DNA from: Cellulosimicrobium cellulans
GTDB taxonomy: Bacteria; Actinomycetota; Actinomycetes; Actinomycetales; Cellulomonadaceae
Reading direction: 5' to 3'
Assembly: GCF_016907755.1 (NCBI RefSeq)
Contig: NZ_JAFBCN010000001.1
Coordinates: 1,054,001 to 1,118,000, forward strand
Length of the DNA: 64,000 nucleotides
This document shows positions 61,442 to 63,121 of this stretch, one piece after another (the first letter of the stretch is position 1; each line of letters begins with the position of its first letter). Below the pieces are notes generated by a model. It made no database searches. It had not been told where the DNA came from and worked only from the letters and a program-made list of their open reading frames with translations. Both the position numbers and the translations under genes were made by a program.

Positions 61442-61471
61442 TTGACACCCCGCGGTGGCCGCTCGTAAGTT
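61442..61471 (+). promoter_or_regulatory. Promoter of sulfur monooxygenase operon
   Basis: TTGACA (61442-61447), 18-base spacer, TAAGTT (61466-61471). Expected start near 61478 gives a leader of about 490 bases, which holds a SAM-IV riboswitch and a leader peptide. The best-matching promoter in this region. Confidence 0.65.
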
Positions 61472-61510
61472 CCCGCGCAACCGAGGTCGACGTACCCCGG
61501 TCACAGGACA

Positions 61511-61632
61511 TGGTCATGAGTTCCGACGCCAAGCCCCGGCTCGTCGGACGGCAACCCTCCCGCGCGGTGGGGTGCCCCGGGTGAGGACCAGGTCCCGCGT
61601 CGCGCAGACACGCGCGGTGCGGGGCAACGACG
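61511..61632 (+). ncRNA. SAM-IV riboswitch (second copy)
   Basis: Core reads GGUCAUGAGUUCCGACGCC from 61512, then AAGCCCCGGCU, CGGACGGCAACCCUCC, and GGGGUGCCCCGGGUGAGGACC, with closing GGUC/GACC pairing and a downstream GGUGCGGGGCAACG segment for the pseudoknot. Same architecture as at 32541 with P3 sequence exchanged by paired changes (GUGCCAGC/GCUGGC versus UUCCGACG/CGUCGGA), strong evidence for conserved folding. Lies before a cysteine-rich leader peptide and two luciferase-like monooxygenases. Confidence 0.9.
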
Positions 61633-61666
61633 CGGAGCCCGGCGACGGGCACGAAGGAGACGGACG

Positions 61667-61798
61667 ATGGACCGGCGAGAGTCGAGCACCGCGGTGAGCA
61701 CCGCGCACGCGTCGACGTACCCCTGTCCGTTCGCGGGCGGCCCTGGCGCCCCCGCCCTCGGGGCCACGGGTCCCGCGCGCGTCGCCTGTTGTCGCTGA
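61667..61798 (+). CDS. Cysteine-ending leader peptide
   Basis: 43-residue ORF behind AAGGAG, starting MDRRESSTAVSTAHASTYPC and ending GPARVACCR. It has three cysteines, all encoded by TGT, the rare codon in this GC-rich genome, including the tandem pair just before the stop. Short Cys-rich leader ORFs before sulfur genes are known in actinobacteria as cysteine-sensing attenuators. It lies between the SAM-IV riboswitch and the monooxygenase gene. Inverted repeat GCGGTCCGG (61835-61843) and CCGGACCGC (61888-61896) follow and could form the alternative fold. Confidence 0.6.
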   Translation: MDRRESSTAVSTAHASTYPCPFAGGPGAPALGATGPARVACCR

Positions 61799-61966
61799 CG
61801 ACGACCCGCCTCTGACACCCCGCGCCACCCGCGCGCGGTCCGGGTCCCTCCCGGCTTCCCCAGCCCCGTCCTGCCGCCCGCGCGCGGCCGGACCGCCCTG
61901 CCCACCTTCCGGCACCCCGCCGCGCCCTGAGCGCGCCGTCGGCTCAACTGAGAACGGATCCTCGCG

Positions 61967-63121
61967 ATGTCCGACCCCCGCCCCGCCCGCACCCTCCACC
62001 TCGGCGTCGACCTCACCGACGCCGGCGCGCACCCCGCCGCCTGGCGGACCGTGGGCTCCCAGGCCCAGCGCCTCTTCGACGCCAAGCGCCTCGTCGAGCT
62101 CGTGGCCACCGCCCAGCGCGGCCTGCTCGACCTGGTCACCCTCGACGACGCCTTCACGCTCCAGCCGGGCCGCAACGGGTCCGTGCGCGGCCGGCTCGAC
62201 GCCGCGCTCGTCGCGTCCCGCCTCGCGCCGCGCAGCGCGGGCATCGGCCTCGTCCCGACGGTCACCACGACCCACACCGAGCCGTTCCACGTGTCCAAGG
62301 CGATCGCGACGATCGACCACGTGAGCGCGGGCCGCGCCGGGTGGCAGGTCGGGTGGTCGACGACGCCGGCCGAGGCCGCCGCGTTCGGGCGCAAGGGCGC
62401 GCAGGACGAGCCCGACGCCGTCGCCGAGGCGGACGAGGCCGTCGAGGTCGTCACGCGCCTCTGGGACTCGTGGGAGGACGACGCCGAGATCCGCGACGTC
62501 GCGACGGGCCGGTTCGTGGACCGCGAGAAGCTGCACTACGTCGACCACGAGGGCATCCGCTTCGCCGTCAAGGGGCCGTCGATCACGCCGCGCCCGCCGC
62601 AGGGCCAGCCGCCCGTCGTCGTCCGGGCGGACACGCCCGCGTCGCTCGACCTCGCGGCCCGCCGGGCCGACGTCGTCCGGGTCCGCGCCGCGACCCGCGA
62701 CGAGGCCGTCGCGCTCCGGTCGCAGGTGCGCGACGCGGCCGCGGACGCCGGGCGCGACCCCGACACCCTCCGGGTCCTCGTCGACGCCTACGTCGTCATC
62801 GGCGACACCCGTGCGAGCGCCCAGGCGCGCCTCGACCTGCTCGAGGACCTCGAGGGCGTCTCGTGGGACACCGACTCGCTCACGCACGTCGGCACGGCGC
62901 GCGACCTCGCCGTCACGGTCGAGGAGTGGACGCACGCCGGCGCGGCCGACGGGTTCCTCCTGCGCCCGTCGTCCCTGAGCACCGACCTCGACGCGATCGT
63001 CGACGGCGTGGTGCCGCTCCTCCAGGGGGCCGGCCTGTTCCGCACGGCCTACCCCGGGACGACGCTGCGCGACACGCTCGGCCTCCCGCTCCCCGCCAAC
63101 CGCTACGCGGCGATCGCCTGA
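61967..63121 (+). CDS. LLM class monooxygenase, sulfur-responsive operon
   Basis: 384-residue luciferase-like monooxygenase. Visible: TLHLGVDLTDAGAHPAAWR near the start, LLDLVTLDDAF near 53-63, the VPTVTTTHTEPFHVSKAIATIDHVSAGRAGWQVGWST strand, and the WDSWEDDAEIRDVATGRFVDREKLHYVDHEG block common in the NtaA/SnaA/DszA group. Likely FMN-dependent and used to break C-S bonds or to modify a sulfur compound; substrate unknown. The 5' leader carries SAM-IV and a Cys leader peptide. No strong ribosome site before ATG 61967. Confidence 0.85.
   Translation: MSDPRPARTLHLGVDLTDAGAHPAAWRTVGSQAQRLFDAKRLVELVATAQRGLLDLVTLDDAFTLQPGRNGSVRGRLDAALVASRLAPRSAGIGLVPTVTTTHTEPFHVSKAIATIDHVSAGRAGWQVGWSTTPAEAAAFGRKGAQDEPDAVAEADEAVEVVTRLWDSWEDDAEIRDVATGRFVDREKLHYVDHEGIRFAVKGPSITPRPPQGQPPVVVRADTPASLDLAARRADVVRVRAATRDEAVALRSQVRDAAADAGRDPDTLRVLVDAYVVIGDTRASAQARLDLLEDLEGVSWDTDSLTHVGTARDLAVTVEEWTHAGAADGFLLRPSSLSTDLDAIVDGVVPLLQGAGLFRTAYPGTTLRDTLGLPLPANRYAAIA

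Follow-up and report, generated by a model that had tools for sequence, protein, structure and literature searches.

We analysed the leader region in front of two flavin monooxygenase genes near the end of a 64,000-nucleotide (nt) stretch of DNA from the soil bacterium Cellulosimicrobium cellulans, referred to below as the window, whose numbering is used throughout. On the plus strand, a SAM-IV riboswitch aptamer (61512-61620) precedes a leader open reading frame (ORF) of 43 codons (61667-61798), which is followed by a C-rich spacer of 168 nt (61799-61966), and then by gene 1 (61967-63121) and gene 2 (63142-64000, extending past the window). Both genes are assigned to the NtaA/DmoA family by TIGR03860, with 287.8 and 306.1 bits, respectively, against a cut-off of 279.7 bits, and both match PF00296. 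Judging from this family, the SAM-IV element and the neighbourhood, the substrates of the two monooxygenases are probably sulfur compounds.

An earlier reading of this DNA (the original prediction) had claimed a clear SAM-IV aptamer at 61511-61632, and the covariance search with the Rfam model (RF00634) agrees: the match scores 87.9 bits (E 2.3e-15), far over the gathering threshold of 38 bits, and covers the full length of the model (1-116) with its conserved core. The element would be expected to bind S-adenosylmethionine (SAM) and to alter expression. The host genome (4.79 Mb, a single contig) contains five SAM-IV elements, four of them inside about 57 kb. A second one in the window (32542-32657, plus strand, 113.3 bits) lies directly before a class-V aminotransferase gene (32693-34129; PF00266, 267.7 bits), which starts 151 nt after the start of the SAM-IV element and is preceded by no leader ORF.

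The leader ORF, recognised from the ORF list and the comparisons described below, starts with ATG, encodes the peptide MDRRESSTAVSTAHASTYPCPFAGGPGAPALGATGPARVACCR and is preceded by the Shine-Dalgarno sequence AAGGAG (61654-61659, plus strand), which is invariant in the same-genus alignment. The 43-residue ORF with a good ribosome site and terminal cysteines (Cys) was thus correctly described at the outset, its exact end being Cys-Cys-Arg-stop. All three Cys codons are TGT, as had also been claimed: one at codon 20 (61724-61726) and two at codons 41-42 (61787-61792, starting at 61787 and 61790), the latter being the proposed stall site. This runs against usage in the window, whose 26 predicted genes use TGC 64 times and TGT twice.

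We read these parts as a nested two-input sulfur leader, in which the SAM-IV element gates the leader ORF and the supply of Cys-tRNA then acts on the ribosome that translates it; we put the probability of this reading at roughly 0.55. At the level of sequence, comparison across loci establishes the aptamer, the leader ORF, its kept Cys tail, the TGT preference, the modularity of the two elements and their fixed spacing. The combination of SAM-IV with a Cys leader is new, and is made of known parts.

A recurrent leader ORF with a cysteine tail

One alternative is that the frame arose by chance, the RNA being GC-rich, and that SAM-IV alone matters. Two differently anchored tests led us to reject a chance ORF. 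The first is anchored on the riboswitch: 110-170 nt after the SAM-IV start, it accepts the earliest ATG or GTG preceded by at least 5 bases that match a Shine-Dalgarno sequence. Among 94 SAM-IV loci of the host family, this rule returned a short ORF at 32, a long or open frame at 49 and nothing at 13. Of the 32 short ORFs, 31 carry a Cys among their final four residues and 31 contain two or more Cys; shuffled controls gave a short ORF in 32 of 1920 cases, two of these with a Cys tail. The 94 loci consist of the four other SAM-IV loci of the host genome, 30 family loci and 60 loci further down the match list, where some rows were skipped, so that they are not a random sample; all but one (L133, which has no leader) exceed the Rfam threshold. 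The 32 leaders span 10 of the 25 genera of the family search: ten are closely similar same-genus copies and the other 22 come from nine further genera.

The second test is anchored on the gene: for each of the 30 best monooxygenase homologues, the preceding 600 nt were searched for a Cys-tailed ORF that has a ribosome site. Such an ORF was found at 24 of the 30 loci, or more fairly at 23, since the match at L061 probably lies inside an upstream gene. The controls gave 0/30 on the antisense strand, 1/30 in the next 600 nt upstream and 34/3000 in shuffled sequences. Five of the six misses are traceable to the position of the tail (L054), the ribosome-site score (L063 and L064), a TTG start (L065) or a single Cys (L062); the sixth, L060, gave no match. 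The absence of synonymous bias within the genus is what a chance frame would predict, yet the Cys tail, the codon choice and the position of the ORF all speak against it, and we strongly disfavour this explanation.

Codon choice was examined in 46 distinct leaders, hand-picked by the presence of Cys near the end, with codon identity no part of the choice. Their Cys codons comprise 133 TGT and 24 TGC, and the last Cys is TGT in 45 of the 46. Because the other codons of these leaders end in G or C in 1270 of 1400 cases, the TGT bias is specific to Cys. Slow reading of TGT when Cys-tRNA is scarce would explain this bias; alternatively, it may come from an RNA-pairing constraint.

Outside the Cys tail, little of the peptide is kept. 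Between genera the N-terminal parts look unrelated (MTRSAAPAVHVSLPS..., MDTSTALV... and MYRSQCRCCCR), and lengths in the 94-locus set range from 11 to 47 residues. In the genus alignment, the gaps inside the ORF measure 12, 27 and 3 bases, whereas many gaps in the spacer are indivisible by three. These features bear on a further alternative, that the product of the ORF is itself functional, a small cysteine-rich protein with a role in trans. Several Cys residues and a ribosome site of its own would suit such a protein, but the divergence outside the tail among genera, the spread of lengths and the lack of amino-acid constraint within the genus make it very improbable.

The pairing of the two elements is not confined to this locus: it recurs within the host family and in a second genus, probably Streptomyces judging by leader type, that belongs to the same class but to a different family. 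There, SAM-IV is present in 147 of 150 genomes, and a Cys-tailed ORF begins 138-150 nt after the SAM-IV start at 7 of 10 lower-scoring loci from eight genomes (L168, L169, L176-L179 and L181, the ribosome sites of L179 and L181 being weak). No Cys-tailed ORF was found at L180. At the remaining two loci, L170 and L172 (the latter by eye), SAM-IV is followed by a leader-like ORF, RLHIDLLRVSSAY-stop, with Tyr and the stop replacing the Cys end.

More widely, a sample of the phylum contained SAM-IV in 36 of 396 genomes at the filters used. At the best SAM-IV loci of 29 genomes outside the host family, no clear Cys leader was recognised; widening the rule to 100-420 nt at the same loci produced four short ORFs (MSKRMR, MCMCP, MNHHRMRR and one of 57 residues), of which MCMCP is a possible tiny Cys ORF. 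A further 16 loci outside the second genus likewise yielded no clear Cys leader. Two ORFs seen on the way were not counted: MCRSPR at 215 nt (L167), and, at 141 nt, a 47-residue ORF whose last residue is Cys and whose ribosome site is weak (L171). We regard the composite leader as real and recurrent. That a riboswitch with a Cys-sensing leader peptide as its direct output, in a serial arrangement that reads SAM first, was assembled more than once in actinobacteria, at operons likely to scavenge sulfur and with two types of leader peptide, strikes us as an even bet.

Modular parts and the order of the two inputs

SAM-IV and the Cys leader are modular parts, each of which stands alone or with the other before homologous monooxygenase genes. 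Rfam finds SAM-IV at 18 of the 30 best monooxygenase homologue loci (10/10 of L036-L045 and 8/20 of L046-L065). Cys-tailed ORFs without SAM-IV occur at L047-L053 and L055-L057, and a rescan of 8 of the 12 SAM-IV-less loci, each holding 1500 nt upstream of the match, revealed no hidden SAM-IV up to E 1. Conversely, SAM-IV lies directly before a leaderless monooxygenase at L018, L020 and L023. The host genome also carries, outside the window (L185, G000:C1:683208), a leader of the known type, QRRDVDLRRVASALCR, with TGT as its last Cys codon and no SAM-IV listed; it matches NF042934 with 28.9 bits (cut-off 27) and precedes a gene of the dicarboxylate-symporter family (PF00375, 284.1 bits). Since each part also occurs alone, each is probably able to work without the other.

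The spacing of the elements suggests how they would be connected when both are present. Leaders begin a median of 148 nt after the SAM-IV start (range 119-159, 35 leaders). At 48 leaderless aminotransferase-like loci (out of 60 fetched, the rest being other genes, leaders or unmatched), the median from the SAM-IV start to the gene start is 149 nt, with 41 of the 48 within 143-156 nt and the outliers at 122-126 nt (five), 114 nt and 243 nt. The three leaderless monooxygenases start 143-147 nt after the SAM-IV start. As a comparison of positions, then, the leader start occupies the place where a gene start would otherwise sit. Because the distance from aptamer to leader equals that from aptamer to gene at leaderless loci, we infer that SAM gates translation of the leader. 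Such spacing favours a gate in series over a parallel one.

In the parallel alternative, the target of SAM-IV would be transcription or the genes themselves, and the Cys leader would act separately, later in the same RNA. The occurrence of each part alone before homologous genes, by which each is probably able to function singly, is in keeping with such an arrangement; the equality of the two distances, which points to the leader ORF as the target of the aptamer, argues against it, and we consider parallel inputs unlikely. The two-input gate for SAM and cysteine claimed originally fares well in that both parts recur together and singly, but the spacing suggests that they act in series, and other loci have the device as well. 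Overall, a two-input reading is likely and the nested order is moderately likely.

Two observations on SAM-IV itself were made along the way. Pairs of elements, oppositely oriented and separated by some 190-230 nt, apparently serve divergent genes at L020 (1471-1583, minus; 1772-1899, plus), L024 (1169-1298, minus; 1502-1614, plus) and L029 (1478-1591, minus; 1821-1923, plus). In a distant actinobacterium (G433, contig 4, 54011-58314), three SAM-IV matches lie on one strand within 4.3 kb.

From the leader to the genes

From ligand binding through the effect of SAM on leader initiation and the stalling for cysteine to all later steps, the mechanism that we infer for the nested leader would run as follows. 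The SAM-IV element, which lies some 150 nt ahead of the ORF's start codon, would decide whether the leader is translated, high SAM turning it off. A ribosome that does translate the leader would reach TGT-TGT, with the Arg codon and the stop following directly. With ample Cys-tRNA it would finish and depart, and the monooxygenase genes would stay off, most likely through Rho loading on the C-rich spacer, or else through the gene's ribosome site folding away. With Cys-tRNA scarce, the ribosome would remain at the leader's end, and expression of the genes would follow. A ribosome parked at the last codons, covering the first bases past the stop, could bar Rho, as in the tna operon. With the SAM gate placed before the Cys gate, the genes would therefore be on only if SAM and cysteine are both low.

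Of the two ways in which the off state could be reached, we place the Rho step, loosely, slightly ahead of translational attenuation. The spacer contains 87 C and 47 G in 168 nt, and 14 other spacers have C fractions of 0.44-0.53 and G fractions of 0.25-0.31. An excess of C over G at least as large occurs in 0.18% of the window's 168-nt segments, both strands counted, and the 78-nt maximum of the spacer is reached at 0.05% of window positions. Inverted repeats, as noted at the outset, are present in the spacer, for example CCGCGC-N7-GCGCGG at 61820-61838. GC hairpins with a CTGA loop were also seen soon after the leader stop in the spacers of L053, L057, L064 and others.

Translational attenuation, in which stalling at the Cys codons frees the ribosome site of the gene, is compatible with either order of the inputs and is a possibility that we rate below even odds. 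Such a mechanism has been ascribed to the cysteine genes of M. smegmatis in the part of PMC13236596 available to us, which cites Canestrari 2020. When the leader is masked, the ribosome site of the gene is predicted to be more open, by a mean of 0.05 over 37 loci (16 up, 3 down), with gene starts chosen by script, a few of which (e.g. L032) look doubtful. On the other hand, shuffled leaders have the same effect (the difference of native from shuffled leaders over 15 of these loci is -0.003, with 8 below zero), so that the predicted folding lends no particular support to a pairing of the leader with this site, and convincing covarying pairing was not found. Two structures within the leader were likewise set aside. 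A long hairpin at the leader start, suggested by the alignment fold, has z +1.0 against shuffles (mean +0.4 over 16 loci). A hairpin around the leader stop reaches z -3.2 in the window; some relatives, however, do not keep its pairs, and over 31 loci the mean z is about -1. A classical attenuator with an intrinsic terminator was also discarded, as a scan of 61300-62000 for intrinsic-terminator-like sites (a GC hairpin plus a U run) returned 0.

Several of these findings, and some others, weigh against the nested reading. The equal effect of shuffled leaders, the hairpin at the leader start that does no better than shuffles and the empty terminator scan have just been given, and covariation is weak, with changes on both sides in 6 of 140 predicted pairs. 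The C-richness, measured against the window, bears on Rho indirectly. Many SAM-IV loci are leaderless, 49 of the 94 running straight into a long frame, and a single genus has monooxygenase loci both with a leader (L033, L035) and without one (L018, L020, L023). Finally, there is no amino-acid constraint on the ORF within the genus: variable sites number 12, 11 and 5 at the three codon positions, and among variable leader codons 16 are non-synonymous and 2 synonymous only. This last pattern fits a leader, whose peptide sequence is not expected to be conserved, but is no proof of translation.

If the nested reading is true, the SAM and cysteine ends of sulfur metabolism are joined in one untranslated RNA, and a riboswitch uses a stalling ORF as its output stage. 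Given that homologous genes exist with SAM-IV only, with the leader only and with both, nature provides single-input controls, and the logic is directly testable. Looking about 150 nt after SAM-IV starts is also a suggested route to unannotated cysteine leaders.

Other features surround the leader. A likely promoter, TTGACA-N18-TAAGTT (61442-61471, plus strand, by eye), begins with a TTGACA at 61442 that is invariant in 10/10 aligned same-genus sequences, with TAAGTT 18 nt on in 9/10; a stricter consensus promoter scan reported nothing for it. Upstream lies a divergent TetR-type regulator (60628-61338, minus strand), whose matches to TetR-family NCBIfam models fall below cut-off, and between the two is a palindrome of 16 bases found by eye, AGTGCATCGATGCACT (61351-61366), a possible operator of this regulator. 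It is largely kept in the 10-sequence same-genus alignment, and as an operator it would be a third layer of control. GAACGGA(G) stands upstream of the monooxygenase start (61967) and at the equivalent place in many relatives. Past the window edge, further luciferase-like and transporter-like genes were named by eye from their translations. Seven named records contain the DNA pattern of the leader, and six of these are from Cellulosimicrobium. QAPD01000042.1 (L196), titled Sphaerisporangium cinnabarinum, has the exact Cellulosimicrobium leader pattern, and the record is possibly mislabelled.

Relation to known systems

Each part has known relatives. As a SAM-IV riboswitch (RF00634), the element is typical in its full-length, over-threshold match and conserved core; it differs in that a Cys leader ORF takes the place where, at 49 of 94 loci, a long frame follows directly. 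In the open literature searched, no account of SAM-IV with a cysteine leader behind it was met, a scope that excludes most subscription papers, including the one on the discovery of SAM-IV. PMC2965389, PMC3890552 and PMC2704369 mention both SAM-IV and leader peptides, and the parts of them available to us do not describe the combination.

Cysteine leaders of actinobacteria (Seliverstov 2005; Shell 2015; Canestrari 2020; NF042934 and NF042936, Ms4527A), as far as these sources could be consulted, resemble ours in being short ORFs whose Cys codons stand just ahead of the stop; the genes behind them are sulfur genes, as those of the window probably are. Such ORFs are reported in the accessible portions of PMC1262725 (Seliverstov 2005) and PMC4633059; the former suggests a role for Rho in the mycobacterial leaders via C-rich or pyrimidine-rich RNA after the ORF and calls the prediction rather weak. 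The mycobacterial examples in the part of PMC4633059 at hand are on leaderless mRNAs, whereas the window leader has SAM-IV and a Shine-Dalgarno sequence before it. The peptides differ as well: the window peptide and six scanned leaders of the host family lack the R-H-I/V-D-L motif. The window peptide matched no NCBIfam family up to E 10, NF042934 and NF042936 included, and none of the six leaders matched an NCBIfam model. In the second genus, the peptide MRHDGCSGASLAVAMVFSRLARRRHIDLKRSTSSFCRA just passes NF042934 (27.1 bits, cut-off 27) and falls below the cut-off for NF042936, and the other peptide scanned is below both.

A parallel in architecture is the B12 riboswitch of M. tuberculosis ppe2, which, according to the portion of PMC11260477 (Kipkorir 2024) that we could consult, acts through the translated upstream ORF uPPE2. 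In both cases a short upstream ORF would be the first target of the riboswitch and relay its signal to the gene, the likeness here being one of aptamer position. The ppe2 relay uses a stop-start overlap and re-initiation, whereas 168 nt separate leader and gene in the window; furthermore, the window ORF, unlike uPPE2 as described there, carries a second likely sensor in its Cys codons.

The metL leader of S. lividans (PMC8079986, consulted in part) is also an actinobacterial leader peptide, MSTTSDRTPATEATTTPGARCMCRRMCAF, with Cys and Met codons before a set of sulfur-amino-acid genes; it is described as leaderless, methionine-dependent and without SAM-IV. The same text reports a SAM-IV element in S. 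lividans and, in the part available, mentions no cysteine leader.

In the enteric mgtA leader with mgtL, a structured leader and an amino-acid-sensitive leader peptide share one RNA; the ligand, the amino acid and the genes differ from ours.

Tandem riboswitches, such as SAM plus cobalamin, also take two metabolite inputs, but through two aptamers, while one of the two inputs here would be ribosome-based. They are covered in a 2025 survey of contiguous riboswitches (PMC12452182), whose main text, as available, has 0 occurrences of "leader peptide".

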